A stretch of DNA of 34,714 bases from a virus: the IMG/VR virus record IMGVR_UViG_3300035670_006450, positions 1 through 34,714 of that record; one strand, given 5' to 3'. This document shows, one piece after another, positions 15,055-29,597 of this stretch (positions are counted from its first letter, which is position 1; each line of letters begins with the position of its first letter). A program made the translations under genes and the position numbers. The notes under the pieces were generated by a model that worked only from the letters and a program-made list of their open reading frames with translations, made no database searches and was not told the DNA's origin.

Positions 15055-15398
15055 TGAATGTTGGTATTCAGGGAACTAAGGAGTTCTCAGACTATAACGT
15101 ATTTTTGCGTGCTATGGGAGTAGCACTATCTGACGTTGTTGATGGAGAGTTTAATGTGTATACCGCTGGACCATCACAAATTAATTCTTTTACTGCTGAG
15201 TTTTGTAATAGGTCAGAAAACAGTTTGAAGAATAGGGGAATTAGGGTAAGATATTATCGTGTTCCCCCTTCTTTTATTGAAGAAAATGCAGAGTCCTTTG
15301 ACTATTTTGCCTTTCTTTCTACTCCAAACCAGAAGCCATCTAAACTAACTGGCTTCATGGAACTAACTGGGGTAGAAACTGGCATATTTAGATACTAA
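15054..15398 (+). CDS. SLOG/DUF2493-like Rossmann protein
   Basis: 114 residues from ATG 15054, which overlaps the upstream stop (TAATG). VGIQGTKEFSDYNVFLRAMG (3-22) resembles the nucleotide-binding start of YspA/DUF2493-like SLOG proteins (I-x-GTR-x-F-x-DY), and VYTAGPSQINSFTAEFC follows where the family has its second Gly-containing loop. SLOG proteins bind nucleotides or nucleotide-derived ligands; the ligand here is unknown. The neighbouring deaminase would fit nucleotide metabolism. Confidence 0.5.
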   Translation: MNVGIQGTKEFSDYNVFLRAMGVALSDVVDGEFNVYTAGPSQINSFTAEFCNRSENSLKNRGIRVRYYRVPPSFIEENAESFDYFAFLSTPNQKPSKLTGFMELTGVETGIFRY

Positions 15399-15406
15399 GG
15401 AAAACA

Positions 15407-15775
15407 ATGCGTAGCAAGAAGGATGAGGCTTACCTTAGCGTAGCCAGATATTTTGCTGGAAAGTCAAGGGCTAGAAACACACATGGTGCAGTTATTGTAA
15501 AGGGTGGACGAGTGCTTGGCACTGGATGGAACAAGGACAGGAATCATCCTAAGATTGTTTCTCCAGAACATATCAAGACCGATTGCTCCTGGCACGCTGA
15601 AGAAGTTGCAATCAAGGATGCAGGAACAAATCTTAAGGGAGCAATTATTTATGTTGCAAGAGTAAATCGTCAGGGCAGGGACAGAGATTCTATGCCTTGT
15701 TCAAAGTGCATGTCTCTCATTGAAGAGGCTGGCATTAAAAGAATAGTATATACATCACAAAAGGAAAAGTCATGA
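15407..15775 (+). CDS. dCMP/cytidine deaminase-like zinc enzyme
   Basis: 122-residue deaminase with HAEE (63-66) and PCSKC (97-101): His and two Cys bind zinc, and Glu is the proton shuttle. The usual reaction is dCMP to dUMP, feeding thymidylate synthesis, but the dCMP-specific allosteric region is not visible, so a nucleoside or other base substrate is possible. RBS AAGGAAAAC precedes ATG 15407. It has an ATGA overlap with the next gene. Confidence 0.85.
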   Translation: MRSKKDEAYLSVARYFAGKSRARNTHGAVIVKGGRVLGTGWNKDRNHPKIVSPEHIKTDCSWHAEEVAIKDAGTNLKGAIIYVARVNRQGRDRDSMPCSKCMSLIEEAGIKRIVYTSQKEKS

Positions 15776-16002
15776 TTATTGATAATCTAGAAACAATGGA
15801 AAATATTGTTGAAAATAGCCCAGAACTTCATTGGGAAGGTTGGGATGTAGTTAAGTATACAGAAACATATAAAGGAATGTTTTCTGCAAACGGAGCATAC
15901 AAAGACGGTAAGTGGTACAAAAAGAGAGTGTTTCCAATCACAGAAAATGGTTGGGAAATACCAGGAAGTATTGGGCAGAAAAATGCAGTTATGGAAAGAT
16001 AA
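15772..16002 (+). CDS. Hypothetical protein (76 aa)
   Basis: 76 residues, Trp/Tyr-rich (HWEGWDVVKYTETYKGMFS, KDGKWYKKRVFPITENGWEI), likely a small beta-sheet domain. No motif is recognised. The ATGA overlap with the deaminase and the overlap with whiB support its reality. Confidence 0.7.
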   Translation: MIIDNLETMENIVENSPELHWEGWDVVKYTETYKGMFSANGAYKDGKWYKKRVFPITENGWEIPGSIGQKNAVMER

Positions 16003-16264
16003 TGCAAAATGTTTAGGAATGGATACAAATCTATTTTTTGACTCATATGAAGAAGATAAAACTTTAGCGTCAAGTATAGATAAACTTTGTCAATCATGCC
16101 CAGTAAATAGACAATGCTTTGCCGTAGGGGTATCAAATAAAGAGTGGGGAGTGCATGGTGGAGTCTATTTACGAGATGGTACAATAGACAAGGAATTTAA
16201 CTCTCATAAAAACAAAAAGGATTGGTTTGAAACTTGGCAAAGTTTAACTATGGAGAAGTCATGA
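15983..16264 (+). CDS. WhiB-like transcription factor
   Basis: Iron-sulfur regulator of a family confined to Actinobacteria and their phages. The four cysteines C10, C36, C39 and C45 have the C-x25-C-x2-C-x5-C spacing for a [4Fe-4S] cluster, with AKCLGMDTNLFF and LCQSCPVNRQC around them and GVHGG (56-60), a variant of the GVWGG turn that contacts sigma factor. The tail (KNKKDW) is only weakly basic. ATG 15983 gives 93 aa; ATG 15947 in the same frame would add 12 residues but overlaps the previous gene more deeply. WhiB proteins bind region 4 of the principal sigma factor, so it could redirect host transcription. It marks the host phylum. Confidence 0.92.
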   Translation: MQLWKDNAKCLGMDTNLFFDSYEEDKTLASSIDKLCQSCPVNRQCFAVGVSNKEWGVHGGVYLRDGTIDKEFNSHKNKKDWFETWQSLTMEKS

Positions 16265-16524
16265 TTTATACACAAAAGATAAAAGAAGAAGTCCACTCAA
16301 TACCAGTCCCTTCAGATTTTGTTATGGATATAGTTGAATATGATTTTACTCCACCATACATTGCTTTGAGATTTTATGAAAGCCATTGGCGACACATGAA
16401 TGATGGTGAAAGATTAAAGTGCATTGATTATATGTCTAGAGTAAAAAAGGTGATTCAGTCTCATGGAATTAATGTCACGCTAGATCCAGTCTATGATGTT
16501 CCAGGAGGACAGACACTGGCATGA
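16261..16524 (+). CDS. Hypothetical protein (87 aa)
   Basis: 87 residues from ATG 16261, overlapping the whiB stop (ATGA) with GGAGAAG upstream. The sequence has a two-strand start (MIYTQKIKEEVHSIPVPSDF), an aromatic middle (YIALRFYESHWRHMNDGERL) and a helix ending VIQSHGINVTL. No function is recognised. It precedes the first glycosyltransferase with a 4-base overlap. Confidence 0.7.
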   Translation: MIYTQKIKEEVHSIPVPSDFVMDIVEYDFTPPYIALRFYESHWRHMNDGERLKCIDYMSRVKKVIQSHGINVTLDPVYDVPGGQTLA

Positions 16525-17438
16525 GTATCTTTGTATCTATTGCATCATATAGAGATCCTGAAATAGTAAAGACGTTGCAAAGTGCGGTTGATAATGCAAG
16601 ATATCCAAATGATCTTCACTTTTCTGTTTTAACTCAGGAAGGGAAAAATGATCATCCAGATTTATACGGTTTTCCAAATATGAATCATCAAAAGATGCAC
16701 TTCAAAGATTCTATGGGTGCTGGATATGCAAGAAAAATTCTTATGGAAACCTATAATGATCAAGAATATTTTTTCCAAACTGATTCTCATATGAGATTTG
16801 CTCCAAACTGGGACGTTAGAATGATAACCATGCTAGAGCAATGTCAAGAAGAAAATAATGAAAAGGTTATCCTTAGTCAGTTTCCAGCACCGTATCAAGT
16901 CTTTACTGATGGAAGAGATTATTTTCCACAAGGAGATAAATCCTATTGGAGCGAACCCTCATGGACTAGTGTAGTAAGAACCTCTAGAGATGAATGGGCT
17001 GGCAATAGAGAAGAGATGAAAGATAAAAGCAAGCCTCATAAATCACATACAGTCCTTGCTGGATACATTTTTGCTTCTGGCAAACTTCCAGAGGAAGTTC
17101 CATATGATGAAAGAATTTCTTTTATGGGTGAAGAACTATGTTTTGCGGTTCGTGCCTATACAAGAGGTTGGGAAATATATGCTCCAAACGAGATGCTTTT
17201 GTGGCACTTTTATAGCAGAAGGGGATATTCAAAGGTTTGGAATCAGAGGGATGATGTTGCAAGAAAGATGAAGTGGAAAGAGATAGAAAGTAATTCAAGA
17301 GAAATTCAAAAAAATATTTTGACTGGAAAAGAAACTGGCATTTATGGAATCGGAGATAAAAGAAGATTCGCTGGTTATCAAAAAATGGTGGGAATTAATT
17401 TTGAAAAATTTTATGAGGATAGAGATGGACTTCCATAA
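16521..17438 (+). CDS. GlcNAc-type glycosyltransferase, paralogue 1
   Basis: 305-residue GT-A-type enzyme like the PF11397 Glycosyltransferase (GlcNAc) family. IFVSIASYRDPE (3-14) forms the first nucleotide-binding strand; QTDSHMRFAPNWD (about 90-102) holds the DxD-like DSH site for the metal and UDP-sugar; GEELCFAVRAYTRGW (about 212-226) and WHFYSRRG follow. The acceptor is unknown and could be a glycan, a virion protein or a modified base. It is the first of four homologues in the window. Its 3' end overlaps an APH-like kinase gene, which is TAATG-linked to a methyltransferase, suggesting one decoration pathway. Confidence 0.85.
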   Translation: MSIFVSIASYRDPEIVKTLQSAVDNARYPNDLHFSVLTQEGKNDHPDLYGFPNMNHQKMHFKDSMGAGYARKILMETYNDQEYFFQTDSHMRFAPNWDVRMITMLEQCQEENNEKVILSQFPAPYQVFTDGRDYFPQGDKSYWSEPSWTSVVRTSRDEWAGNREEMKDKSKPHKSHTVLAGYIFASGKLPEEVPYDERISFMGEELCFAVRAYTRGWEIYAPNEMLLWHFYSRRGYSKVWNQRDDVARKMKWKEIESNSREIQKNILTGKETGIYGIGDKRRFAGYQKMVGINFEKFYEDRDGLP

Positions 17439-18300
17439 TATAGTATCGTTGGTTCAAGAAAACTCTGACATTAGTTATATATATGATGTAAAGCCAATAA
17501 AAGAGGGGTTGTGCTTTAACACATACGAGATTGTTTTGCGAGATGGACAAACTTTAATACTAAGGCTGGTCAGAAATAAAAGAGAAGCACAAAACGTTAA
17601 AAAACTAAAGTGGGAATTTGAAATACAAAATCAGTTATATGGAAATTTCCCCGTACCAAAACAGGTTTTATTTTGTAATGATTATACAAAAGTAGATTCT
17701 CCATTTTATTTATATGAAAAGGTAGAAGGAATTGTTAAACGAGATATAAGATCAATTAAAAAATCATTTGAGTTATTGCTTCAGTTGCATACAATTCCTT
17801 TAGAAAACTTTTCTATGACAAACATGAGAGTAGAAAAAAATTTAAAAAATATTATTAATAAAAATTATGGCATATATATAAATTCTGTAGATCATGTAGA
17901 TATGAGACTACATAAAATTTATGAGTGGCTTATTGAAAATATACCTGATATGGACAACATATCTCTTATTCATAATGACTGGCGTTCAGACAATATGATA
18001 TTTTTAGGTGATGAAATAAGTGCAGTTCTTGATTGGGAACTTTCTTGTATAAGTTTTTCAGAACTTGATATTGGTGTTGCTATGGCCTATCTGAATGAAA
18101 TGGAAGAGGAAGAAGTTCTTAATAATTTTAATATAGATAATTCTTCTAATTATAAATTTTGTGAGATTTTTGGAATAATGAAAATGAACGCCATTATTAA
18201 TGCTGTCAAAAAAAATAAGGTTAGTGATATAATAAAAAATGAGAATGTTGACTGGATACTAGAATCAAAGATAGAAAAGGCATTAAGGAGAATTAGTTAA
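17425..18300 (+). CDS. APH/choline-kinase-like small-molecule kinase
   Basis: 291 residues from ATG 17425, chosen because GAGGATAGAG lies just upstream (in-frame ATG 17413 is an alternative). Kinase motifs: a Lys/Arg-rich beta region (ILRLVRNKRE, 45-54), the catalytic loop HNDWRSDN (183-190) with Asp185 and Asn190, and LDWEL (202-206), the metal-binding D-x-E of APH enzymes. Such kinases phosphorylate sugars, amino alcohols or antibiotics. Placed between a glycosyltransferase and a methyltransferase, it more likely phosphorylates a sugar or glycan constituent than an antibiotic. Strongly AT-rich codon use suggests recent acquisition. No transport or resistance gene is nearby. Confidence 0.82.
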   Translation: MDFHNIVSLVQENSDISYIYDVKPIKEGLCFNTYEIVLRDGQTLILRLVRNKREAQNVKKLKWEFEIQNQLYGNFPVPKQVLFCNDYTKVDSPFYLYEKVEGIVKRDIRSIKKSFELLLQLHTIPLENFSMTNMRVEKNLKNIINKNYGIYINSVDHVDMRLHKIYEWLIENIPDMDNISLIHNDWRSDNMIFLGDEISAVLDWELSCISFSELDIGVAMAYLNEMEEEEVLNNFNIDNSSNYKFCEIFGIMKMNAIINAVKKNKVSDIIKNENVDWILESKIEKALRRIS

Positions 18301-18944
18301 TGAATCTCAAAATTTTATATCAGCCCTTATCTTCACAAAGCATTAATGAAAGAAATGTTGTTGTCAGAAAGTGTGAAGATAGAGCACAGGCGATGCTTGA
18401 ATTTTGCCAGGAATATTTTGGAGATTCATTAAATCAAAAAACTTTTCTAGATATCGGATCTAACTATGGATACTTTTTAAATTATTTTAAAGATTATTGT
18501 TTGAGCGTTGCTGGCATAGAAAACGATAGTAAAAAAATACACATTAATAAAATATTCTATCCTGATGTTGTAGATGGAGTAAAAAATGTAGATCTAGCAA
18601 TGTTTTATGAAGATGTAAAATATAACATTGTTTCTTTTTTAAGTATATTGCATAACTGCATGATGAGTGACGAAGAGGTTTTGTCTCCAGAAGATTATAT
18701 TGAAATTGTTGATGAAATAACTGAAGATGTAATGTTTTTTGAAATGGGTCAAGAGCATGAAGAATTTTTCCAGGGAACATTGGATGGTTGGAATCCAGAA
18801 ACTATTCAGGAGTGGATTTTAAAAAATACTACATTTGATGTTTGCAAGCCACTCATGGTAGACAACGATAATGTTGGAAGATTTGAAAATATGTTTGGAA
18901 GAACTCTTTTTGCTTGCTATAGAAATGATAAAGATCACATCTAG
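18300..18944 (+). CDS. Class I SAM-dependent methyltransferase (glycan/small-molecule type)
   Basis: 214 residues; ATG 18300 overlaps the kinase stop (TAATG). Motif I is FLDIGSNYGYFLNYF (49-63), followed by an acidic end of beta-2 (IEND, 73-76). The later motif (NIVSFLSILHN) lacks the DPPY or NPPF of DNA/RNA base methylases, so O-methylation of a sugar or phosphate is more plausible than nucleic-acid methylation. Substrate is unknown. The tight coupling GT, kinase, methyltransferase is the strongest clue to a shared product. Confidence 0.82.
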   Translation: MNLKILYQPLSSQSINERNVVVRKCEDRAQAMLEFCQEYFGDSLNQKTFLDIGSNYGYFLNYFKDYCLSVAGIENDSKKIHINKIFYPDVVDGVKNVDLAMFYEDVKYNIVSFLSILHNCMMSDEEVLSPEDYIEIVDEITEDVMFFEMGQEHEEFFQGTLDGWNPETIQEWILKNTTFDVCKPLMVDNDNVGRFENMFGRTLFACYRNDKDHI

Positions 18945-18949
18945 TTTGT

Positions 18950-18978
18950 TTGACTCGAAAACAAATTGTTGATATAAT
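18950..18978 (+). promoter_or_regulatory. Sigma-70 promoter
   Basis: TTGACT (18950-18955), 17-bp spacer, TATAAT (18973-18978) with TGa in front. A leader with AAGGAGG precedes ATG 19008. Confidence 0.85.
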
Positions 18979-19007
18979 TATAATATCCCAACCCACAAGG
19001 AGGAATT

Positions 19008-19181
19008 ATGAAGACACTTATGCGTGCCTTTGAGAATCTTTTCACAAGCGTCACAAACGCGGAGGAAAGAGAACGTCGTGAAATGTATCGTGCCTGGACA
19101 GCAGAAAGAGAAAAGGCTGCTAGATACGGATCTCACCATGTTGCAGAGATTGATGCAATCTTCTCTCGCGCAGGTTTATAA
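19008..19181 (+). CDS. Small helical protein (57 aa)
   Basis: 57 residues: MKTLMRAFENLF then a charged helix (ERERREMYRAWTAEREKAAR) and a short end (AEIDAIFSRAGL). A strong promoter and a strong SD (AAGGAGG) mean high expression. It resembles small Arg/Glu-rich phage proteins of unknown role; perhaps a host-takeover peptide, but this is inference. Confidence 0.7.
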   Translation: MKTLMRAFENLFTSVTNAEERERREMYRAWTAEREKAARYGSHHVAEIDAIFSRAGL

Positions 19182-19183
19182 TA

Positions 19184-19212
19184 TTGACTTCATCCATGTC
19201 ATAGTGTAAAAT
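19184..19212 (+). promoter_or_regulatory. Sigma-70 promoter with start at the ATG
   Basis: TTGACT (19184-19189), 17-bp spacer, TAAAAT (19207-19212). An ATG lies six bases later at 19219, and a second, SD-preceded ATG lies at 19249. Confidence 0.75.
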
Positions 19213-19248
19213 TGTGGCATGGATGAGTTATTTTATAAGGAGCCTTTA

Positions 19249-19428
19249 ATGTTAGATGCTAGGGGTATTCCCACCAGAGAATGTCCATCTTGCGCTTCAA
19301 CACTGTTTACTATTCAGGCGGTGTTTGATGAAAACTACGAGATAGGTATGTATCTTCTTAATGCTGAATGTGCTATATGTCATACCAAAGTTACCGCACC
19401 AACACCATTGGATTTAGTATATGGATGA
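19249..19428 (+). CDS. Small zinc-ribbon protein
   Basis: 59 residues from ATG 19249, selected because AAGGAG (19237-19242) lies six bases upstream. The in-frame ATG 19219 would add MDELFYKEPL and would be leaderless from the promoter just upstream; both forms may exist. CPSC (about 12-15) and CAIC (about 40-43) make a four-Cys zinc ribbon around a beta hairpin. Function is not recognised. The stop overlaps the next gene. Confidence 0.65.
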   Translation: MLDARGIPTRECPSCASTLFTIQAVFDENYEIGMYLLNAECAICHTKVTAPTPLDLVYG

Positions 19429-19612
19429 AGATTTTTGGATAAACATAGTAAAAAATCGTCTATTTTATAAAGTTGAAAAATGGTCGGTGGGAGAAGATAG
19501 AATTCTTTTTGTAGAAAAGAAAAAATGCATAACATATTTTGGTGCCAAAAGATATGCCAGAAGGTGTATAATAAACCATATTTTAAGTCAATATATTAAG
19601 GAGAAAAAATGA
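19421..19612 (+). CDS. Hypothetical basic protein (63 aa)
   Basis: 63 residues, basic and aromatic (FYKVEKWSVGEDRILFVEKK, then RYARRCIINHILSQYIKE). It looks like a beta hairpin plus a helix. No motif is recognised. It overlaps the zinc-ribbon gene by 8 bases and the next gene by 4. Confidence 0.65.
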   Translation: MDEDFWINIVKNRLFYKVEKWSVGEDRILFVEKKKCITYFGAKRYARRCIINHILSQYIKEKK

Positions 19613-19815
19613 CTAATGAAGATATGCTACAAAATGTTATAACCAATCTTATTGAAAGAATGGGTAGACAAACTGTATCCTATGAAACAGAAATTGCTAA
19701 TCTTAATGCTCAGGTCGCTCTTCATCAAGCAAGAGTTGAGCAAGTAAATGTTGAACTACAGAAGATGGAAAAGAGAACGGCGAAGAAGGATCGGATAGAA
19801 GAAGACGACGAGTAA
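19609..19815 (+). CDS. Small coiled-coil protein
   Basis: 68 residues, ATGA-coupled to the previous gene, with AAGGAGAAAAA upstream. Residues 20-60 form a heptad-like amphipathic helix (ETEIANLNAQVALHQARVEQ), ending in a charged tail (KKDRIEEDDE). Likely a dimerising or oligomerising helper. Function is unknown. Confidence 0.7.
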   Translation: MTNEDMLQNVITNLIERMGRQTVSYETEIANLNAQVALHQARVEQVNVELQKMEKRTAKKDRIEEDDE

Positions 19816-19818
19816 AGG

Positions 19819-19827
19819 TGGTAGAAT
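19819..19827 (+). promoter_or_regulatory. Extended -10 before glycosyltransferase 2
   Basis: TGg plus TAGAAT (19822-19827), about 34 bases before the TTG start at 19862. No clear -35 hexamer is seen. Confidence 0.45.
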
Positions 19828-19861
19828 AGTATTGTATCTCAATTAAATTAGGTAGGAAAAA

Positions 19862-20788
19862 TTGTCAATATTTATATCTCTAGCCAGTTACAGAGAACCA
19901 GAACTGAGAGATACTATTCTTTCCGCTTTAGAAAATGCAAAGCATCCAGATTCTATTCATTTTGGAGTATATTCTCAGGTAGAATCTGGAGAGCATCCAA
20001 ATCTTTCTGATATTGCAAATGTCACAGAAGTTATAGTTCCATCTTCTCAGGCAAAAGGTGCTGGATATGCAAGATCTAAAGCAATGGAACTATTCAATAA
20101 TCAAGATTATTTTTTGCAAATCGACGCTCACAGCATTTTTGCAAAAAACTGGGATACAAATATCGTTGCTCTTTACAAAAAAATTCAGGAAGAAACCCAT
20201 AACGATAAAATAGTTATAAGTTTTTGGGGATTTCCATATATGCGAGATCAAAAAACAAACAAAGTAATATACCAATATGAATATGGTGATTGGCAGGTTA
20301 ACTGTCCTCACTATACAGAACTGGTGCGCTATGGTGATGCCTGGATTGGCGGCAGAGTAGAAATGCCTAAGGGATTGGACTATCATGAATCTGCTGTAGC
20401 CTTGGGTGGATTTATTTTTGCTAAAGGTGATATCGTTAGAGAGGTTCCATACGATCCAGACATTTCTTGGACTGGTGAAGAATTTATGTTTTCTATACGC
20501 GCATATACTAGAGGGTGGAGAATATACTCTCCATATGAAAAATTTCTTTTTCATAATTATGAAAGACATAACAACCCTAGAATATGGAATGACAATAGAA
20601 AGTGGAACTATCTTGAGTGGCTTGGTAAAAGAAAAATGTATAACGCCCTCACCCTGATTGATAAAAGTGTTTGGGGCATTGACGATAAGAAAATGTACAT
20701 GGAATATCAGGGAAAGCATGGAGTCAATTTAATTAAAGAAGCAAAAAGATTGACTAAAAAATATGCTAGACGACCAAGAGATGTTTAG
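19862..20788 (+). CDS. GlcNAc-type glycosyltransferase, paralogue 2
   Basis: 308 residues starting at TTG 19862 with AGGAAAAA upstream; the start is fixed by alignment with paralogue 1 (both begin MSIF-S-ASYR-PE). QIDAHSIFAKNWD (about 80-92) carries the metal/UDP-binding D-A-H, a D-x-H version of DxD. GEEFMFSIRAYTRGWRIYSP and LFHNYERHNNPRIWND follow the family layout. Closest in look to paralogue 1, it lies in a separate transcript, so it probably acts on a related but different linkage. A TTG start may keep expression low. Confidence 0.85.
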   Translation: MSIFISLASYREPELRDTILSALENAKHPDSIHFGVYSQVESGEHPNLSDIANVTEVIVPSSQAKGAGYARSKAMELFNNQDYFLQIDAHSIFAKNWDTNIVALYKKIQEETHNDKIVISFWGFPYMRDQKTNKVIYQYEYGDWQVNCPHYTELVRYGDAWIGGRVEMPKGLDYHESAVALGGFIFAKGDIVREVPYDPDISWTGEEFMFSIRAYTRGWRIYSPYEKFLFHNYERHNNPRIWNDNRKWNYLEWLGKRKMYNALTLIDKSVWGIDDKKMYMEYQGKHGVNLIKEAKRLTKKYARRPRDV

Positions 20789-20790
20789 TC

Positions 20791-20796
20791 TATAAT
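20791..20796 (+). promoter_or_regulatory. Possible -10 box (TATAAT)
   Basis: TATAAT just after the glycosyltransferase stop, about 27 bases before ATG 20823, which has AAAGGA as SD. No TGn and no obvious -35, so this is a weaker call. Confidence 0.4.
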
Positions 20797-20822
20797 GTAT
20801 TAACTCTAACAAAGGATTTTTT

Positions 20823-21299
20823 ATGCAAACATTTGTACCATATAAAAGTTTTATTAAGTCTGCCGTAGTTTTGGATAACAAAAGACTAAACAAGCAATTA
20901 CTTGAGGGTCGTCAAATATATAGTATTCTGGCAAATAATCGTACTAAAGGTGGATGGATTAACCATCCTGCTGTTAAGATGTGGCGCAACTATGACAACG
21001 CATTATTTGAATACCTTGTTGCTATTAAATATGAGTGCGATGATCGTGGCATTAGTACAGAAAAGAATTGGGAAGCAATTCAAGAGATGTATGACTGGAA
21101 TTGGGATCGTGGAGATAGTGTAGTTATGCCTCAATGGTGGGGGGATGAAAGAGTTCATCAATCTCATCGCAATAATCTTTATCGTAAAGATCCAGAATAT
21201 TATGTGGAGTTTATTAATGATAAACGTGTAACGTGTTGCGATAGATGCAATTATTTTTGGCCTACTCATACTCTTATGTATAACTTAGAATTGGTATAA
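20823..21299 (+). CDS. MSMEG_6728 / pyrimidine-dimer-glycosylase-like protein
   Basis: 158 residues matching the pattern of the actinobacterial MSMEG_6728 family, annotated as related to T4 endonuclease V-type pyrimidine-dimer DNA glycosylases. MQTFVPYKSFIKSAVVLDNK (1-20) and the following RLNKQLLEGRQI, NHPAVKMWRNYD, and VHQSHRNNLYRKDPEYY (about 112-128) are the conserved blocks. A short CCDRC end (about 139-143) is extra. T4 endonuclease V acts from its N-terminal amine, but whether this homologue does is uncertain. A UV-damage repair enzyme would suit a sunlit-water phage. Confidence 0.75.
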   Translation: MQTFVPYKSFIKSAVVLDNKRLNKQLLEGRQIYSILANNRTKGGWINHPAVKMWRNYDNALFEYLVAIKYECDDRGISTEKNWEAIQEMYDWNWDRGDSVVMPQWWGDERVHQSHRNNLYRKDPEYYVEFINDKRVTCCDRCNYFWPTHTLMYNLELV

Positions 21300-21300
21300 T
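21292..21300 (+). promoter_or_regulatory. Extended -10, leaderless start of heme oxygenase
   Basis: TGg plus TATAAT (21295-21300) overlaps the end of the upstream gene and lies six bases before ATG 21307. No SD intervenes. Confidence 0.65.
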
Positions 21301-21306
21301 TGCTTC

Positions 21307-21942
21307 ATGAAGAAATTTCCCTTTGTAGACAGGATGAAAGAAGAAACCTGGGAAGATCATGAGGCATCTAAGGATAGTCCCTTTGCCACCACAATAATGT
21401 CAGGAGAACTTGGCAAACAGGCTTTTATAGAATGGCAAAGAGCACTATATCCAGTATATGTTTTGCTTGAAGAAATTCTCAGAGCAAAAAGAAAAACAGA
21501 TGCAACAATTCACATTTTTGATCACAGGAAATTAGATAGAGCAGACAGAATTTATGATGATCTAATGCTTCTTGGTGTAGATCCAATAAAAGAACCAACA
21601 CAACTAAAAACAATCCCACCATACTTAGAAGCAATAAAAAAGGCTTCTGAAGAAGCACCACGACTTATGGCATATCACTACACAAGATACATGGGTGATA
21701 TGAATGGCGGTCAAGTTATTGCTATGAGAATGAGCAAGGTTTATGGTATTGACAATAGAGCACTTTCCTGCTATGATTTTAACCAGTTAGGAGATCTTTA
21801 TCATTATAGAAAACAATATAAGACTCTTCTTGAATTAGTCCCCTGGACTGAAGAAGAAAGAGAGTCTTTTATTGATGAAGCAAAGATAGCCTATAAAATA
21901 AATGAACAATTGTTTAATGAATTATACGAAACTAACAAATGA
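21307..21942 (+). CDS. Heme oxygenase
   Basis: 211-residue all-helical enzyme that opens heme to biliverdin, CO and Fe2+. The proximal-ligand region is WEDHEAS (15-21, H18), and the signature on the distal helix is YTRYMGDMNGGQ (125-136), matching the family's RYxGDxSGGQ with N for S. Full length for bacterial HO. Known phage heme oxygenases are from cyanophages, where they serve bilin synthesis; here no bilin reductase gene is adjacent, so iron release, heme detoxification or biliverdin for a host phytochrome are the options. It appears to be transcribed from an extended -10 box that makes it leaderless, and it is ATGA-coupled to a small gene. Confidence 0.92.
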   Translation: MKKFPFVDRMKEETWEDHEASKDSPFATTIMSGELGKQAFIEWQRALYPVYVLLEEILRAKRKTDATIHIFDHRKLDRADRIYDDLMLLGVDPIKEPTQLKTIPPYLEAIKKASEEAPRLMAYHYTRYMGDMNGGQVIAMRMSKVYGIDNRALSCYDFNQLGDLYHYRKQYKTLLELVPWTEEERESFIDEAKIAYKINEQLFNELYETNK

Positions 21943-22151
21943 TTGGACACAAGTTGAAGCGTAAGGAAAATTACACTGAAGAGGATGAACGCGCATTGCG
22001 TGATCTACAGGCTGCCGCAGAAGGTCTGCGAAAGGCAGGAGGAGGCAAGGCTGGAGAGTCTGCCGAAAAGAAGTTTGGTCAGGCATATACCAAGTGCTAT
22101 CGCTTGGGATTGAAGCAGTATCCTCCTATTGTTTGCAAGACAACGAGGTAG
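21939..22151 (+). CDS. Hypothetical small basic protein (70 aa)
   Basis: 70 residues, ATGA-coupled to heme oxygenase. Helical and charged: a Lys/Glu-rich start (KLKRKENYTEEDERALRDL), a Gly-rich turn (KAGGGKAGES) and a basic end (YRLGLKQYPPIVCKTTR). Two Cys (about 53, 66). No function is recognised; the coupling could mean joint action with heme oxygenase or only a shared transcript. Confidence 0.65.
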   Translation: MIGHKLKRKENYTEEDERALRDLQAAAEGLRKAGGGKAGESAEKKFGQAYTKCYRLGLKQYPPIVCKTTR

Positions 22152-22154
22152 AAA

Positions 22155-22541
22155 ATGCCACTATGGAAGACCTTCTCTGGAAAAGATAAACAAATTATTA
22201 AGCCAAAAACTTGGAACATTGTAACCTTTGATGGTAAAGGAGAATTGCCATTGCCTGCTCAAGGTTGGTCAATTATGGAATCAATGATTCGTGTATTTTA
22301 TCCAGTAGAGGGTTGTCCAACAACTGTCAAAATTCGCTTGGCACGATGGCCTGATACAAAGAAAGAAGATCTAACTGGTCATTCTGATTATGATCCACTG
22401 CCAGGTGATGAGCGGCATATTCATTGGCAGCATTTTTTATTTAATAGGCCAGACTTGACAGTAGCAATTAAGATATGGCATAATGGAACAAAGCCAATAA
22501 CTTTAGATGGTAGACAATTTAAAACAACTAGATTTAAATAA
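22155..22541 (+). CDS. Hypothetical beta-rich protein (128 aa)
   Basis: 128 residues, three bases after the previous stop. It is rich in Trp, Pro and beta strands (NIVTFDGKGELPLPAQGWSI, then IRLARWPDT and LTVAIKIWHNG), similar in feel to a beta-sandwich, perhaps a virion decoration or glycan-facing protein. No signal peptide. No family is recognised. Confidence 0.7.
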   Translation: MPLWKTFSGKDKQIIKPKTWNIVTFDGKGELPLPAQGWSIMESMIRVFYPVEGCPTTVKIRLARWPDTKKEDLTGHSDYDPLPGDERHIHWQHFLFNRPDLTVAIKIWHNGTKPITLDGRQFKTTRFK

Positions 22542-22546
22542 ACAAC

Positions 22547-22617
22547 GCGACCGTTGCATAATGGTAGTGCCTCTGCCTTCCAAGCAGATAGTGCCAGTTC
22601 GATTCTGGTCGGTCGCT
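22547..22617 (+). tRNA. tRNA-Gly (anticodon TCC)
   Basis: Acceptor GCGACCG/CGGTCGC, anticodon stem TCTGC/GCAGA with loop CTTCCAA (anticodon 22579-22581), T-arm GCCAG-TTCGATT-CTGGT. Reads GGA. First of three closely packed tRNAs. Confidence 0.92.
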
Positions 22618-22643
22618 CGCTTGGGAAGTTGATGTTTTGCAAA

Positions 22644-22716
22644 CTGCGTGTGGCGCAACGGATAGCGCAAATGGTTTCTACCCATTAGGTTGGGGGTTCG
22701 AATCCCTCCACGCAGG
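22644..22716 (+). tRNA. tRNA-Arg (anticodon TCT)
   Basis: Acceptor CTGCGTG/CACGCAG, D-stem GCGC/GCGC, anticodon stem AATGG/CCATT with loop TTTCTAC (anticodon 22677-22679), T-arm GGGGG-TTCGAAT-CCCTC. Reads AGA, the preferred Arg codon of this phage by eye. Confidence 0.92.
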
Positions 22717-22720
22717 CCAC

Positions 22721-22800
22721 GCTGGATATTCTCCAAGGTGGAGAAGCGGTCTGTAAAACCGTCGCCTCAGGCATGGTTGGTTCGATTCCAACATCCAGCA
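22721..22800 (+). tRNA. tRNA-Tyr (anticodon GTA)
   Basis: Acceptor GCTGGAT/ATCCAGC, anticodon loop CTGTAAA (GTA at 22753-22755), an extra variable-arm stem GCC-TCA-GGC as in bacterial class II tRNA-Tyr, and T-arm GTTGG-TTCGATT-CCAAC. Confidence 0.92.
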
Positions 22801-22813
22801 CGTTAATTAGTTA

Positions 22814-22819
22814 TATAAT
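22814..22819 (+). promoter_or_regulatory. Possible -10 box before the DUF7455-like gene
   Basis: TATAAT right after tRNA-Tyr, 15 bases before ATG 22835, whose SD is AAGGAG. No TGn motif; the -35 would lie inside the tRNA and does not match. Confidence 0.4.
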
Positions 22820-22834
22820 ATAAAAGGAGAGATA

Positions 22835-23053
22835 ATGGAAACAGCAGTAGAAGAAAAAACAGATTTACTTAAAATTAGTGACCGCTGTGACCGCTGCTCA
22901 AGTCAAGCATTTGTTTGGGTAAATGGTGTCAATGGAGATTTACAGTTTTGCCGTCATCACTTCCTTCAGTATGAAGATGCATTGCGTAACTACGCTTTTG
23001 AAATAGTTGATGAGACATACAAGATAAATGAAAGATCTTCTTCAAGTGTCTAA
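22835..23053 (+). CDS. DUF7455-like zinc protein
   Basis: 72 residues with DRCDRCSSQAFVWV (about 16-29), then FCRHHF (about 38-43): two Cys plus Cys/His for one zinc, the pattern of a small protein family common in Actinobacteria and actinophages. AAAAGGAG is a strong SD. Function is unknown. It sits between the tRNA trio and a glycosyltransferase, overlapping the latter by 26 bases. Confidence 0.8.
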   Translation: METAVEEKTDLLKISDRCDRCSSQAFVWVNGVNGDLQFCRHHFLQYEDALRNYAFEIVDETYKINERSSSSV

Positions 23054-23981
23054 TATTTTTATATCAATTGCAACTTTAGAAGATGAAGAACTTGTTGATA
23101 CTGTTTTTTCTGCTTTTAATAATACGATTGAAAAAGTAAGTTTTGGCATTGCTTTTACAACATCAAAAGATTTTTATGATGATAAGATTAGAAAACTTAG
23201 AAAGATACCAAATTTAAGACACATGCTTTTAGATTTAGAAAATAATTACGGAACAGGTAAAGGAAGAAACTCTGCTAGAAGCATGTATCAAAATGAGGAA
23301 TATTTTCTACAAATAGACTCTCACACTGAGTTTGAAAAAGGTTGGGATATTAAATTAATAAATCTTTATGATGATGTAAAAACAGAAACATCTTTAGATA
23401 AGTTTGTTATCACTGCTGCATTGGGAAGTTATGAAATAGTTGATGACAAAAGAGAAATTCTGGATAAAGAAACATCTTATATGATTACAAAATCTGGTAA
23501 GTTTTTTGAAGGAACAAAAAATGTTCCAGTATATACTGCGGCAAAAGTAAAAAATTTTCCAGATTTTTTTAAAACAAAAAGAAAATTCATTCCAGCGGTA
23601 AGTATATGTGGATGTTTTATTTTTGGAGATAAGAACTTTGCAGAAAATTATAGTTTACCAGAAGAATGTATTTTTAATGAAGAGCAAATATTACATTCAA
23701 TTAATCTGATTTCTAATGGCTTTGCTTTAGTTTTTGTTAATGGGGAGTTGCCATTAACACATTACTATCTTAATGATCTTGAAAAAAATATTAAATTTAG
23801 ACAAACATTAAAAGAGATAAGTATTCATGATTGGGCATCAATACAGTCAGAAAATGTAACAAATTTTGTAAACAACAATAAAGAAAAGTGCGAACACTAC
23901 AGAAAATATTCTATGTATGACTTGACACAGGGGCAGGGTATAGAGTATTATATTCCTAGAAAGTTTGTTCTGCCTCAATAA
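23028..23981 (+). CDS. GlcNAc-type glycosyltransferase, paralogue 3
   Basis: 317 residues, more divergent. IFISIATLEDEE (10-21) takes the place of IF-S-ASYR-PE; QIDSHTEFEKGWD (about 95-107) keeps D-S-H; SICGCFIFGDKNF and NEEQILHSINLISNG keep the later family blocks with Asn-Glu-Glu instead of Gly-Glu-Glu. The sugar and acceptor may therefore differ. It lacks a good SD and overlaps the zinc-protein gene. Its last codons and TAA lie within the acceptor stem of tRNA-Thr (10-base overlap), an arrangement that suggests it was inserted beside an existing tRNA. Confidence 0.78.
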   Translation: MKDLLQVSNIFISIATLEDEELVDTVFSAFNNTIEKVSFGIAFTTSKDFYDDKIRKLRKIPNLRHMLLDLENNYGTGKGRNSARSMYQNEEYFLQIDSHTEFEKGWDIKLINLYDDVKTETSLDKFVITAALGSYEIVDDKREILDKETSYMITKSGKFFEGTKNVPVYTAAKVKNFPDFFKTKRKFIPAVSICGCFIFGDKNFAENYSLPEECIFNEEQILHSINLISNGFALVFVNGELPLTHYYLNDLEKNIKFRQTLKEISIHDWASIQSENVTNFVNNNKEKCEHYRKYSMYDLTQGQGIEYYIPRKFVLPQ

Positions 23982-24044
23982 CTCAGTTGGTAGAGTATCG
24001 CACTTGTAATGCGAATGTCGGCGGTTCGATTCCGTCTTGAGGCT
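23972..24044 (+). tRNA. tRNA-Thr (anticodon TGT)
   Basis: Acceptor GCCTCAA/TTGAGGC, anticodon stem TCGCA/TGCGA with loop CTTGTAA (anticodon 24005-24007), T-arm GGCGG-TTCGATT-CCGTC. Its first 10 bases are also the end of a glycosyltransferase coding sequence. Confidence 0.92.
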
Positions 24045-24055
24045 CCGCCATAATA

Positions 24056-24101
24056 GATATGCAAGTGCCGCACGGCGAGGCTCTGATCAGGCTTGCATAT
24101 C
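24056..24101 (+). ncRNA. Hairpin element between two tRNAs
   Basis: GATATGCAAG (24056-24065) and CTTGCATATC (24092-24101) form a perfect 10-bp stem. The 26-nt interior holds a small GCC-GCAC-GGC hairpin and the palindrome CTGATCAG. It is not a tRNA and not an ORF. It might be a processing signal, a small stable RNA, or the relic of a mobile element. Confidence 0.4.
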
Positions 24102-24105
24102 GCTT

Positions 24106-24177
24106 GGCCCCATCGTCTATTGGTTAGGATACTAGGCTTTCATCCTGGTGAAGAGGGTTCAATTCCCTCTGGGGCTG
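24106..24177 (+). tRNA. tRNA-Glu (anticodon TTC)
   Basis: Acceptor GGCCCCA/TGGGGCT (first pair G-U), anticodon stem CTAGG/CCTGG with loop CTTTCAT (anticodon 24139-24141), T-arm GAGGG-TTCAATT-CCCTC. Reads GAA. Confidence 0.92.
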
Positions 24178-24199
24178 CTTCTACTAACAAAGGAATGAA

Positions 24200-24712
24200 A
24201 TGAACGTTATTGATGAATATAAGACTATGATGGTTGAAGAAATAAAGTTTGATTTATCTACAAAGAGAGCACCATTCACATCTGTATTTATTAATTTAAC
24301 TCATGATTTTAATAAGTCAGTAGGAGTAAGAAACCATAATGCTTTTGCTGGAGGTAATATTTGGTTTGTTGGCAAAAAGCAATGGGATAAGCGAGGAGCA
24401 GTAGGAACCTATCACTATGAGGACATACATTATGCCGATTCTTGGGACACTTTTGTTTTGCATAAGCCAGATGGACCTATCATCTGTGTGGAAAATGCGA
24501 CTAATGATTACAGACACAGACATTTAGGATCATTTAATCTTCCTGCTAATTCTATCTTTGTTTATGGAGAAGAAAAGGTAGGCATTCCAGATTATATTTT
24601 AAATTCAGCAGACTATATTCTGTCTATTCCAATGTTTGGTAGCGTTAGATCGTTGAACGTTAGCGTTTCAAGTGGTATTATTATGTATGAATATAGGAGA
24701 CAACATCAGTAG
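24200..24712 (+). CDS. SpoU/TrmH-type RNA 2'-O-methyltransferase
   Basis: 170-residue SPOUT-fold enzyme. Motif 1 region VGVRNHNAFAGG (41-52), motif 2 YGEEKVGIP (122-130) and motif 3 SIPMFGSVRSLNVSVSSG (142-159) build the trefoil knot and the SAM site. The family 2'-O-methylates ribose in tRNA or rRNA. Its place among seven tRNA genes, between tRNA-Glu and tRNA-Leu, points to phage or host tRNA as substrate, TrmH (G18) and TrmL (wobble 34 of Leu tRNA) being the obvious precedents. It lacks the N-terminal RNA-binding extension of rRNA enzymes, which fits. AAAGGA precedes ATG 24200. Confidence 0.88.
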   Translation: MNVIDEYKTMMVEEIKFDLSTKRAPFTSVFINLTHDFNKSVGVRNHNAFAGGNIWFVGKKQWDKRGAVGTYHYEDIHYADSWDTFVLHKPDGPIICVENATNDYRHRHLGSFNLPANSIFVYGEEKVGIPDYILNSADYILSIPMFGSVRSLNVSVSSGIIMYEYRRQHQ

Positions 24713-24719
24713 AATACAT

Positions 24720-24802
24720 GCCCAGGTGGTGGAACGGCAGACACGCTCGCCTCAAAAGCGAGTGCCCGAAAGGGCGTGAGGGTTCAAATCCCTCCTTGGG
24801 CA
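24720..24802 (+). tRNA. tRNA-Leu (anticodon CAA)
   Basis: Class II tRNA: acceptor GCCCAGG/CTTGGGC, anticodon stem CTCGC/GCGAG with loop CTCAAAA (anticodon 24753-24755), long variable arm GCCC-GAAA-GGGC, T-arm GAGGG-TTCAAAT-CCCTC. Reads TTG. It starts seven bases after the SpoU gene stop. Confidence 0.93.
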
Positions 24803-24814
24803 CAAACTATACGA

Positions 24815-24820
24815 TATAAT
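24815..24820 (+). promoter_or_regulatory. Possible -10 box before the methyltransferase
   Basis: TATAAT 12 bases after tRNA-Leu, followed by a 30-base leader with AGGGGC before ATG 24854. No -35 or TGn element. Confidence 0.4.
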
Positions 24821-24853
24821 ATCAGTAGCAAATTATTAAAGATAGGGGCAAAA

Positions 24854-25366
24854 ATGCCAACAGGAGTTTTGTTAGTAGCAGAAAGAGCAGTAACATTTGC
24901 AGGAACAGTAAATCCTCCACCAAGGAAAATCTTGGATGTTGGTTGCGGTTATGGCAAGTATGGAGTCTTATTAAGAGAATATGTTGAGGGTCATCCATCA
25001 GTTGATGGTGTAGAGGCATGGGAACCTTACGTTGAGCCACACAAATTAAGAGGCATATACGATAATCTATATGTTGAAGATGTATGTGGACTATCACAAG
25101 AAATATTAGATCAATATGACATGGTTGTAATGGGTGATGTTATTGAGCATATTGGAAAACATCAGGCATTAGAACTTTTATCCAGAATAAAGGGGTGGGT
25201 TGTAATAGCAACCCCGTTTGATCATTTTCATACTGACGAGGGTCTTCCACCAACAGAGGCACATATATCTCATTGGACAACGGAAGACTGGATAAATACT
25301 GGAAGATTAGATCTACATGAAGTTTTTCAGGGATCTCATGTAGTAAGACTTCTTCCACAACAATGA
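24854..25366 (+). CDS. Class I SAM methyltransferase (Methyltransf_23-like)
   Basis: 170 residues from ATG 24854 with AGGGG upstream; earlier in-frame codons would run into tRNA-Leu. Motif I is ILDVGCGYGKYGVLL (26-40), an acidic beta-2 end (GVEAWEP), and DMVVMGDVIEHIG (about 89-101) is the motif-IV-like block typical of small-molecule and sugar methylases. The C-terminal part (HISHWTTEDW) resembles O-methyltransferases acting on glycans or lipids. The stop codon TGA is also the first three bases of tRNA-Asn. It could serve the glycosyltransferases, or, given the tRNA context, an RNA target; the former fits the motifs better. Confidence 0.82.
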   Translation: MPTGVLLVAERAVTFAGTVNPPPRKILDVGCGYGKYGVLLREYVEGHPSVDGVEAWEPYVEPHKLRGIYDNLYVEDVCGLSQEILDQYDMVVMGDVIEHIGKHQALELLSRIKGWVVIATPFDHFHTDEGLPPTEAHISHWTTEDWINTGRLDLHEVFQGSHVVRLLPQQ

Positions 25367-25435
25367 CCTGTGGCGCAATGGCAGCGCAGTTGACTGTTAA
25401 TCAATTGGTTGGAGGTTCGAATCCTCCCAGGTCAG
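25364..25435 (+). tRNA. tRNA-Asn (anticodon GTT)
   Basis: Acceptor TGACCTG/CAGGTCA, D-stem GCGC/GCGC, anticodon stem GTTGA/TCAAT with loop CTGTTAA (anticodon 25396-25398), T-arm GGAGG-TTCGAAT-CCTCC. Its first three bases are the stop codon of the preceding gene. Confidence 0.92.
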
Positions 25436-25439
25436 CGAC

Positions 25440-25448: not shown

Positions 25449-25454
25449 TTGCTC

Positions 25455-26399
25455 ATGAGAGAAACCATCTTCATATCTATGCCAGCCTGCAATGAAGATT
25501 ATATACATCTGACAGTTGAGAGTGCTTTACGATCTGCAAAAAATCCAGAGAACATTTATTTTGGAATTTTTGAGCAAAGAACGGATGATAAACCATTTTA
25601 TAAAATTGATAACATCTATCAAAATAAAATAAAAAAAATATCTGTTAGGTCTGGTCAACCACTGGGTGTTGGAATTGCAAGATCAAACGCAATGTCTCTT
25701 TTAAGAAAACAGAAATATACTTTAGTTATAGACTCTCATACATTTTTCCCAGAAAATTGGGATGAAAAAATTATTCAAAAGTATAAAGAGGTAACTGAAA
25801 AAATAGGAGACAAGACTGTTTTTTCTCAACATCTATATTCTGCAAAAATAGAAAATAATGAAATAAAAATTTCTGATGAAACAATGCATCCTGCTCCTCC
25901 CATTATGAAGATAAAAGAAAATATTCCTTATGCAGATTCTCCATCAGAAGATGACTGGTCAGAGGGATTTTTAGAAAGCGGAATTTTAACATGTCACTTC
26001 ATCTTTGGTCACTCTTCCATATTTGAAGAACTTGCATTTGATAGTAGAATTTTTTATTACTTTGAAGAACCCTTATATTCTCTTAGATTGTGTACCAGGG
26101 GGTACAAAATAGTTTCTATTGACTACAATCCTTTATATCATCTTAATAAAGGTGGGTATGATGTAGAACTTTCCCCGAATTCTAAAGAGTGGAAAAGAGT
26201 TTTAAAATATAATTTTGATAGTGAAACATATAAAAAAAATTTTATTGCACAAAAAATAGCAATAGATGTATTTTTGGGTAGTTATTATGGATATTGGGGA
26301 GCACCTGATAGGCAATCATTAGATGATTATCTAAATAAATTTAATATATCTGTTCAAAATGATAAAAAAGAATTGTCTATTTCTAATGTATATGATTGA
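25455..26399 (+). CDS. GlcNAc-type glycosyltransferase, paralogue 4
   Basis: 314 residues from ATG 25455 (TTG 25449 is in frame but lies too close to the -10 box). IFISMPACNEDY (5-16) is the divergent first motif; VIDSHTFFPENWD (about 93-105) keeps D-S-H; FEEPLYSLRLCTRGYKI (about 203-219) matches the acidic and C-terminal blocks. With paralogues 1-3 it shows that the family has expanded and diverged in this phage. Its AT-rich coding and leaderless promoter directly behind a tRNA suggest a self-contained cassette. Confidence 0.78.
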   Translation: MRETIFISMPACNEDYIHLTVESALRSAKNPENIYFGIFEQRTDDKPFYKIDNIYQNKIKKISVRSGQPLGVGIARSNAMSLLRKQKYTLVIDSHTFFPENWDEKIIQKYKEVTEKIGDKTVFSQHLYSAKIENNEIKISDETMHPAPPIMKIKENIPYADSPSEDDWSEGFLESGILTCHFIFGHSSIFEELAFDSRIFYYFEEPLYSLRLCTRGYKIVSIDYNPLYHLNKGGYDVELSPNSKEWKRVLKYNFDSETYKKNFIAQKIAIDVFLGSYYGYWGAPDRQSLDDYLNKFNISVQNDKKELSISNVYD

Positions 26400-27795: not shown

Positions 27796-28073
27796 TGGAA
27801 TTAGTTACGTTAGAAAATTCTGATGATCAAATTTGGGTCCATCCCAATTTTGCTTGTAATAATCAAAATTGTACGGTTCATAATAGGAGCAATCATCCAA
27901 TGAGATCTTTTCCTCAGTATTGGAGAAGTGATCGTGGAATTATGGAAAGAACATGTCCTCATGGTGTCGGTCATCCCGATCCTGATGAGTATAAAATTAG
28001 AGGAGAGTCTGGTAAATGGGAACTAGTTCATGGATGCGATGGATGTTGCGAGGGATCGTATGATTCCCTATAA
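27795..28073 (+). CDS. Hypothetical Cys/His-rich protein (92 aa)
   Basis: 92 residues; TAATG start. FACNNQNCTVHNRSNHP (19-35), CPHGVGHPDPDEY (about 54-66) and HGCDGCCEGSY (about 79-89) suggest one or two zinc sites. Sequences of this type occur in actinophages without known function. Its end overlaps the guanine-nucleotide enzyme by 14 bases. Confidence 0.75.
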   Translation: MELVTLENSDDQIWVHPNFACNNQNCTVHNRSNHPMRSFPQYWRSDRGIMERTCPHGVGHPDPDEYKIRGESGKWELVHGCDGCCEGSYDSL

Positions 28074-29100
28074 CAAGACAGCACTGTGCTTTGACGATAT
28101 TCTTCTTGTACCTCAGGAAAGTGGTGTTGAATCTCGTCATTCAGTAGATCTTTCTATGACAATTGGTTTTAACAAAAGAGAGATTAGACTAGATCTTCCT
28201 ATTATTGCTGCTCCTATGGACACTGTTTGCGATGTTGATATGTGTATGGCTATTGCCAAGGCTGGTGGACTAGGAATTCTTCACAGGTACATGCCAGACA
28301 ATATTCTAATTAATAAAACAAAAGAATTATCAGATACTAGATACGGTTTTGGCGTTTCTGTTGCTGCAACAAATGGATATATGAATCTTTCTGAACAGTT
28401 ATATGATGCTGGTGCAAGATTATTCCTTGTTGATACTGCAAATGGACATAGTGAGTATGCAGTAAGAGCAGTAGAAAACCTAAGAGCAGCATTTGATGAC
28501 GATATTCATATCATGGCAGGAAATGTAGCAACAGCAGAAGGATTCATGCGTCTTGCAGAAGTTGGTGCGGATTCAATTCGTGTTGGCATTGGTGGAGGAA
28601 GTGCATGTACAACAAGGCTGGTTAGTGGTCATGGTGTACCTACACTTTCATCTATTATGGATGTTGAAGACTTGAGAGAAATTAATGGCGTAGAATGTTC
28701 TATCATTGCAGATGGAGGAATTCGTAATAGTGGAGATATGATTAAAGCATTTGCCGCAGGATCAGATGCGGTTATGGTTGGCTCAATGCTGGCTGGTACA
28801 GATGAGGCTCCAGGGGAGATTATTACAGATCATAACGGTAAAGAGGCTAAGGTATTCCGTGGAATGGCTTCAGCACAGGCTCAGAAAGATTCTAGAGGCT
28901 CAGTGTCAGTATCTGAGGGTGTTTCAACTACTGTTCCTTACAAGGGTTCAGTAGAACATATTTTGAAACAAATTAAGGGCGGTCTAGGAAGTGGTTGCTC
29001 TTATAGTGGAGTAAGTGAGTTAAGTCACCTATCTTCTATTGCAGAATATGTAGAGGTTACCACTGCCAGTCTAAATGAGTCTAAGCCACATGCTATTTAA
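28060..29100 (+). CDS. GMP reductase / IMP dehydrogenase family enzyme without CBS domains
   Basis: 346-residue TIM barrel. GIGGGSACTTR (176-186) holds the catalytic Cys183; VDTANGHS (124-131), AGNVATAEG (153-161), ADGGIRNSGD (217-226) and VGSMLAGTDEAPGE (240-253) are the family phosphate- and nucleotide-binding parts. There are no CBS domains, and the length equals that of E. coli GuaC (347). The flap lacks the Arg-Tyr dyad that IMP dehydrogenases need, and KGGLGSGCSYSG resembles GMP reductase more. So GMP to IMP reduction (salvage toward adenine nucleotides, useful for AT-rich DNA) is favoured, although AGTDEAPGE leans to IMPDH. ATG 28060, preceded by GAGGGA, was chosen. Confidence 0.85.
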   Translation: MIPYNKTALCFDDILLVPQESGVESRHSVDLSMTIGFNKREIRLDLPIIAAPMDTVCDVDMCMAIAKAGGLGILHRYMPDNILINKTKELSDTRYGFGVSVAATNGYMNLSEQLYDAGARLFLVDTANGHSEYAVRAVENLRAAFDDDIHIMAGNVATAEGFMRLAEVGADSIRVGIGGGSACTTRLVSGHGVPTLSSIMDVEDLREINGVECSIIADGGIRNSGDMIKAFAAGSDAVMVGSMLAGTDEAPGEIITDHNGKEAKVFRGMASAQAQKDSRGSVSVSEGVSTTVPYKGSVEHILKQIKGGLGSGCSYSGVSELSHLSSIAEYVEVTTASLNESKPHAI

Positions 29101-29102
29101 TA

Positions 29103-29111
29103 TGCTATAAT
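29103..29111 (+). promoter_or_regulatory. Extended -10 promoter of hsp20
   Basis: TGc plus TATAAT (29106-29111). Transcription should begin near 29118, inside the CIRCE operator that follows. Confidence 0.8.
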
Positions 29112-29114
29112 TAT

Positions 29115-29141
29115 TTAGCACTCGCCTAATGGGAGTGCTAA
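29115..29141 (+). promoter_or_regulatory. CIRCE operator (HrcA binding site)
   Basis: TTAGCACTC (29115-29123), nine bases, GAGTGCTAA (29133-29141): an exact match to the conserved CIRCE inverted repeat bound by the heat-shock repressor HrcA. It overlaps the predicted transcription start and lies in the leader of hsp20, the usual position in host groE/dnaK operons. Confidence 0.95.
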
Positions 29142-29165
29142 CTAACTCGCTATAAGGAGAATAAA

Positions 29166-29597
29166 ATGACAACTACAACAACACTGGCTGCAAAAAGTAG
29201 CCTAGACAAATTGTTCGATCCACTATTTATCGGATTCGATAAGTTTTTTGATAACTATTCATCAGTTACCACCAATTCATATCCGCCATATAATGTCATC
29301 AAGGTTGATGAGACAAATTATTTAATTGAGGTTGCTGTTGCAGGATTCAGCAAACACGATATTGAAATTACTGAGCAGGGCGGTGTTCTTAAGATTGAAG
29401 GATCTCATGTAGAAGATCATCCTGATGCCAAGTATCTGCATCGTGGTGTAGCCGCTCGTAAGTTTATGAGAATGTTTAATCTACATGACGACATAAAGGT
29501 AAAGGGTGCAGATATTCATAAGGGTCTGCTTCAAATTAAACTAGAAAAAATTGTTCCAGAAGAGAAGAAGCCAAAGCGTATTGCTATTGGGTCATAG
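29166..29597 (+). CDS. Small heat-shock protein Hsp20 (IbpA-like)
   Basis: 143 residues with an alpha-crystallin domain of the IbpA type: YPPYNVIKVDETNYLIEVAV (39-58), AGFSKHDIEI (59-68), YLHRGVAARKFMRMFNLHDD (about 89-108), KGADIHKGLLQIKLEK (about 113-128), and an I-A-I end motif (RIAIGS) that mediates oligomer contacts. It holds unfolding proteins in a refoldable state. Hsp20 genes are known in cyanophages and other phages. Here it has an SD (AAGGAG), its own promoter and a CIRCE operator, so expression should rise when host HrcA is inactivated by heat or chaperone titration. Confidence 0.95.
   Translation: MTTTTTLAAKSSLDKLFDPLFIGFDKFFDNYSSVTTNSYPPYNVIKVDETNYLIEVAVAGFSKHDIEITEQGGVLKIEGSHVEDHPDAKYLHRGVAARKFMRMFNLHDDIKVKGADIHKGLLQIKLEKIVPEEKKPKRIAIGS

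Follow-up and report, generated by a model that had tools for sequence, protein, structure and literature searches.

We consider it fairly probable, on sequence evidence, that the hsp20 gene of the phage described here is under two controls, with the HrcA repressor of the host acting on transcription and a short ROSE-like hairpin acting on translation. The window, i.e., the whole stretch of DNA that was analyzed, is the entire IMG/VR virus record IMGVR_UViG_3300035670_006450 (34,714 bases, GC ~36%). It contains an exact CIRCE operator at the promoter of hsp20 as well as a WhiB gene; the operator recurs before other viral hsp20 genes, it is part of a covarying leader, and no hrcA was found in the records searched. 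In the proposed mechanism, two heat-linked controls would be written into one leader of ~50 bases. At the DNA level, HrcA, which we infer to be present in the actual host, would bind CIRCE over the predicted start site of a -10-driven promoter and keep the gene off. The derepression signal would be a loss of HrcA activity, classically through occupation of GroEL by unfolded protein or through heating, so that stress of the host, or a load of folding phage proteins on GroEL, would switch hsp20 on. At the RNA level, the same dyad, once transcribed, would fold as the stable 5' hairpin I of a putative thermometer of the short ROSE-like kind, in which CUCGCU would pair with AGGAG and damp translation until warming opens the pairing.

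CIRCE operator and promoter of hsp20

The hsp20 gene (29166-29597, plus strand) encodes a small heat-shock protein (sHsp) of 143 aa (PF00011, 2e-18; phrog_432, 2e-41), with the alpha-crystallin domain of PF00011 at residues 45-141 and the C-terminal I-x-I present as IAI (residues 139-141). The nearest solved structures are sHsps (PDB match 7ck4, 3e-22). Transfer of gene and operator together from a bacterium found no support, as the nearest bacterial hsp20 genes, most of them alphaproteobacterial, lack a CIRCE in the ordinary position.

The perfect CIRCE TTAGCACTC-GCCTAATGG-GAGTGCTAA occupies positions 29115-29141 (arms 29115-29123 and 29133-29141), 24 bp ahead of the hsp20 ATG. The dyad, TTAGCACTCGCCTAATGGGAGTGCTAA, has 0 mismatches to the consensus TTAGCACTC-N9-GAGTGCTAA and no second site turns up in the 34.7 kb even when 3 mismatches are allowed; the chance expectation is none (0/100 shuffles). 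An extended -10 promoter, TGCTATAAT (29103-29111, plus strand), lies directly behind the stop of the IMPDH/GMP-reductase-like gene (28030-29100, plus strand; PF00478, 2e-96) and 3 bp ahead of CIRCE, so that the start site is predicted at about 29117-29119, inside the dyad. A consensus scan found no -35 element to go with it. The original prediction had placed an exact CIRCE in this leader, overlapping the predicted start site of the extended -10, and both points agree with this layout. The IMPDH/GMP-reductase-like gene is itself borne by the phage and retained in some relatives.

Recurrence of CIRCE before viral hsp20 genes

Scanning viral contigs for exact CIRCE returned 103 stretches. The 114 CIRCE sites that were classified, the window's own included, lie before hsp20 (~20), groES (~13), htpG (2) or elsewhere. 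A scan of IMG/VR for TATAAT-N2-6-TTRGCACTY-N9-RAGTGCYAA returned 31 contigs, 30 of which lead straight into hsp20, so the arrangement is not peculiar to one contig. TATAAT lies 3-4 bp ahead of CIRCE in all 31 contigs checked, which had all been selected for a gap of 2-6 bp; the gap is 4 bp in the 30 hsp20 contigs and 3 bp in the window. The layout is common to five hsp20 groups, namely the window (group 1), L024/L090 (group 2), L002, L011, L023, L029, L032, L043, L051, L055, L066, L075, L077 and L093 with L432, L443 and L451 (group 3), L434/L448 (group 4) and L452-L462 (group 5). CIRCE-hsp20 arrangements in L028, L049, L074 and L084 were left out, their viral status being unsettled. Since the contigs were gathered by the CIRCE pattern, their mutual identity is partly circular, a circularity that only the rarity estimate and the spread on the tree given below escape. 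Among hsp20 loci gathered by Hsp20 protein similarity, CIRCE leaders were found in 2 of 77 and 0 of 80.

This distribution also bears on whether the phage CIRCE is mainly a decoy, replicated copies of which would titrate HrcA and derepress host groESL for virion folding, with control of hsp20 being secondary. The operator does multiply with phage DNA, and its perfect consensus would suggest strong binding. However, CIRCE is not free-standing but keeps a constant distance to the -10 and to the hsp20 start, the window holds a single copy, and there are relatives without CIRCE; we thus regard a decoy function as very unlikely.

Several other occurrences deserve mention. In L057 (5679-5705) and L061 (119-145) a perfect CIRCE lies ahead of a different hsp20, which in L057 stands directly behind the terminase large subunit gene and has no ROSE-like leader by the covariance model R1 (see below); this is apparently a second phage CIRCE-hsp20 case, independent of the five groups. 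Exact CIRCE was also seen ahead of htpG (Hsp90) genes in virus-labelled contigs (L019:1982, L033:709), and several other virus-labelled contigs carry it before groESL, possibly as host DNA at prophage edges. Some stretches of virus-labelled contigs contain two or three perfect dyads (L026:5424-5548, 49 bp apart; L036:7037-7100; L089:379-473; L054; L050; L071), with nearby genes lacking a match to the chaperone queries; these may be HrcA decoys, repeats or bacterial DNA.

A ROSE-like leader RNA shared by phage hsp20 genes

According to covariance-model searches, the CIRCE dyad of the window doubles as hairpin I in a ROSE-like hsp20 leader that is conserved. The leader RNA up to the AUG (29118-29168, plus strand) comprises hairpin I, which consists of the CIRCE arms plus CC/GG with the loop TAAT and a bulged G at 29124, and hairpin II, formed by an anti-Shine-Dalgarno and a Shine-Dalgarno (SD) sequence. 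The former is CTCGCT (29146-29151, plus strand), containing the ROSE motif UYGCU, and the latter AGGAG (29155-29159, plus strand), to which CTCGCT is complementary with one bulged G. ROSE RNA thermometers are recognized by just this arrangement, CUYGCU opposite AGGAG with a single bulged G. Most phage hsp20 leaders have the same layout, i.e., arm-G-CC-N4-GG-arm' at the presumed 5' end followed by a linker, CTYGCT, AGGAG and ATG, and the shared hairpin and CUYGCU are also present in the leaders of cultured cyanophages. CTYGCT was found in 75% of 259 viral hsp20 leaders as against 1.3% of shuffles.

Model R1 was based on alignment A4 of 27 hsp20 leaders, none with CIRCE. In this alignment, the rows of which are related by descent, 98.6% of the cells of hairpin I are paired; the hairpin has six covarying pairs with all four Watson-Crick pair types, suggesting that its letters are otherwise free. 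The whole-structure covariation score over both helices was 0.66, compared with 0.23 for shuffled and ≤0.21 for slid alignments. When R1 was run on the window, the leader was the single credible match in 34.7 kb (42.1 bits, E 8e-10; next best 10.6 bits). The model also recovered each of the five CIRCE-hsp20 groups and passed over the groES CIRCE loci examined. Six of the seven cultured phage genomes to which it was applied gave one match each, located at hsp20, and 10 of 80 proteobacterial-type hsp20 loci were matched. Since a model trained without CIRCE picks out the leader of the window along with the five groups, we equate the dyad with hairpin I. Phage hsp20 genes in general are preceded by this hairpin, so that the dyad as such is to be expected, and only its letters call for HrcA.

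The Rfam family ROSE_3 (RF02523) aligns end to end with the window leader, yet at 12.5 bits, below its gathering threshold of 43 bits, and we therefore call the element ROSE-like instead of filing it as a ROSE member. On other leaders ROSE_3 reached 19.5 bits (L266), 15.7 bits (L557) and, in a bacterial leader from Pelagibacteraceae (L299), 30.3 bits with E 6e-5; its alignments surface only when short stretches are searched. PhotoRC-II or any other Rfam family was rejected as an identity for the leader, a 51-kb search giving no Rfam match at E up to 1. Overall, the alignments and searches indicate that phage hsp20 genes have a common ROSE-like leader that Rfam misses at its thresholds.

Whether the RNA layer senses heat is a separate matter. 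In ViennaRNA folding the SD of the window is only partly paired and changes little from 5 to 45°C; ViennaRNA, however, takes no account of the non-canonical pairing known from ROSE. The weakness of hairpin II in this prediction fits a two-control leader without a thermosensing RNA, in which hairpin I would mainly protect the 5' end of the mRNA, CUYGCU would be a relic, and HrcA would be the sole real heat input, a reading that shares its first layer with our preferred explanation. Stabilization of transcripts by a 5' hairpin has been discussed before (PMC3669281). Nevertheless, CTYGCT and AGGAG persist across highly divergent leaders, the former at the frequency given above, and loss of thermosensing appears unlikely to us, if worth serious consideration.

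The arm letters of CIRCE

A further possibility is that the dyad serves the ROSE-like leader as hairpin I and nothing more, with the match to CIRCE due to chance or to inherited stem letters and with no binding of HrcA. Conservation of the hairpin before phage hsp20 genes does not depend on the sequence of its arms, and close relatives of L434 (L484) and of L452 (L514, L522) have other arms and keep the hairpin, from which we also conclude that CIRCE can be lost. The letters themselves, however, are hard to account for in this way. In leaders without CIRCE, the seven arm letters beside the bulge are shared at 2.3 of 7 positions at 40-50% protein identity and at 4.2 at 80-90%, and identical arms occurred in 0 of 2703 pairs. 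A position-frequency estimate, which for the two outer letters uses a roughly assumed factor, puts an exact CIRCE arm at ~2e-6 per leader, and yet this wording is shared, always beside a -10, by groups with Hsp20 identities of 35-50%. Eight changes of the CIRCE label are required on the hsp20 tree; counted by group, at least four are forced by starred branches.

Only positions 3 and 9 of an arm depart from CIRCE in the five groups. The L452 group retains the outer TT/AA even though RNA pairing is broken there by an A.C mismatch at position 3. Furthermore, the outer TTA/TAA of the CIRCE arms probably lie partly upstream of the predicted transcript start. The rarity of the arms, their spread over divergent groups, the restriction of departures to positions 3 and 9 and the pairing-breaking mismatch favour selection on the letters as DNA, that is, by HrcA. 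An RNA hairpin that resembles CIRCE by accident or descent thus seems to us an improbable explanation.

Within the L452 clade, CIRCE and non-CIRCE leaders have common clade-specific tails and loops, which argues for CIRCE having arisen there by substitution in place and not by cassette transfer. Under our preferred explanation of two controls, one palindrome would serve both as DNA operator for the host repressor and as structural hairpin of an RNA thermometer, and phage lineages would repeatedly have fixed or lost the host consensus in the free letters of the hairpin, thereby plugging an old thermometer-chaperone cassette into the actinobacterial HrcA circuit. We are evenly divided on this wider scenario.

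Relation to known systems

In bacteria, CIRCE/HrcA operators with the consensus given above are located at groESL, dnaK and some hsp genes (PMC9004370, PMC3842655), and hsp1 of L. plantarum offers a precedent for an sHsp gene with an HrcA site (PMC3842655). The window shares with them the identical 27-bp dyad, the 9-bp spacer and the overlap with the predicted start site. In contrast, its operator is carried by a phage, precedes hsp20 instead of groESL or dnaK, has no hrcA alongside and is built into a hairpin like that of an RNA thermometer. The closest parallel on the RNA side is Pseudomonas ibpA, where short two-hairpin ROSE-like thermometers have been described in a 5'UTR of 61-62 nt (PMC3669281), compared with about 50 nt in the window. 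In both, an IbpA-type gene is preceded by a stable hairpin I and then by U(U/C)GCU in imperfect pairing with the SD. However, ibpA has a sigma32 promoter where the window has an HrcA operator, and the thermometer role of the window leader is a predicted one.

The Hsp20 of the window belongs to the same protein family as those of cyanophages (PMC3827213, PMC5028025). None of the 12 hsp20 leaders of cultured phages that were read has CIRCE, and several have ATAAATA-like late promoter motifs. Titles and abstracts of the open-access literature, subscription journals being outside this scope, yielded no description of a phage CIRCE or of a phage ROSE-like hsp20 leader; the publication joining CIRCE, HrcA, phage and hsp20 was a review of probiotic stress responses. 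The window therefore seems to join an operator and a type of RNA leader that are each known, in a combination for which no description was found. If HrcA does act there, phages of Actinobacteria would sense the protein-folding state of the host through its own repressor, at a chaperone gene. The leader would also be a natural example of an operator in DNA superimposed on a conserved RNA element, in which the free letters of the stem show when selection by a protein ligand sets in.

HrcA, the host and the phage lineage

The record of the window encodes no HrcA, as the original prediction had noted, and none was found in 18 further records of relatives and similar phages, the largest 104 kb (0 of 19 in all); the same search was positive in C. 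glutamicum. An hrcA could sit in a part of the phage outside the 34,714-base contig, but it is also missing from the 18 other records. Given the exact operator over the predicted start site, its recurrence in WhiB-bearing phages and the lack of a phage hrcA, host HrcA would be the natural ligand of the phage CIRCE. The earlier view of a phage chaperone wired into the host HrcA heat circuit is partly supported by this same evidence, i.e., right at its core and in direction; it was incomplete in that it overlooked the RNA layer. Pontimonas salivibrio, an aquatic actinobacterium, has HrcA, GroES and GroEL but no sHsp of the hspX type (PMC6106888), so a CIRCE-hsp20 phage might supply a chaperone class that its host lacks.

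WhiB is encoded in at least one contig of each of the five CIRCE-hsp20 groups, the hosts of which are thus probably Actinobacteria. In the window, a WhiB-like gene (15947-16264, plus strand; PF02467 at 15992-16168) points to an actinobacterial host, and the closest named phages by DNA polymerase are Streptomyces phages (55% identity). On these two genes an actinobacterial host is likely for the window phage, which is of a freshwater type; Actinobacteria are major bacteria of freshwater.

Polymerases related to that of the window (67-89% identity) were found in 80 virus contigs. Of 50 such relatives searched whole, one has hsp20 (G020, Hsp20 35% identical to the window's), and its leader (L266, G020:3355-3410) is strongly ROSE-like without CIRCE, scoring 55 bits by R1, for which L266 was itself among the 27 training leaders. 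CIRCE within 3 mismatches is absent from these 50, except for a 3-mismatch site at 93 kb of G030, in which no hsp20 was detected. In the relative L463, a different small gene, and not hsp20, comes after an IMPDH-like gene 84% identical to that of the window. The CIRCE-hsp20 piece therefore appears to be accessory in the window lineage, and conservation of CIRCE within that lineage was rejected. The window also carries eight tRNA genes (12144-25436), two GlcNAc-type glycosyltransferases (23028-23981 and 25449-26399) and an APH-like phosphotransferase (17344-18300).
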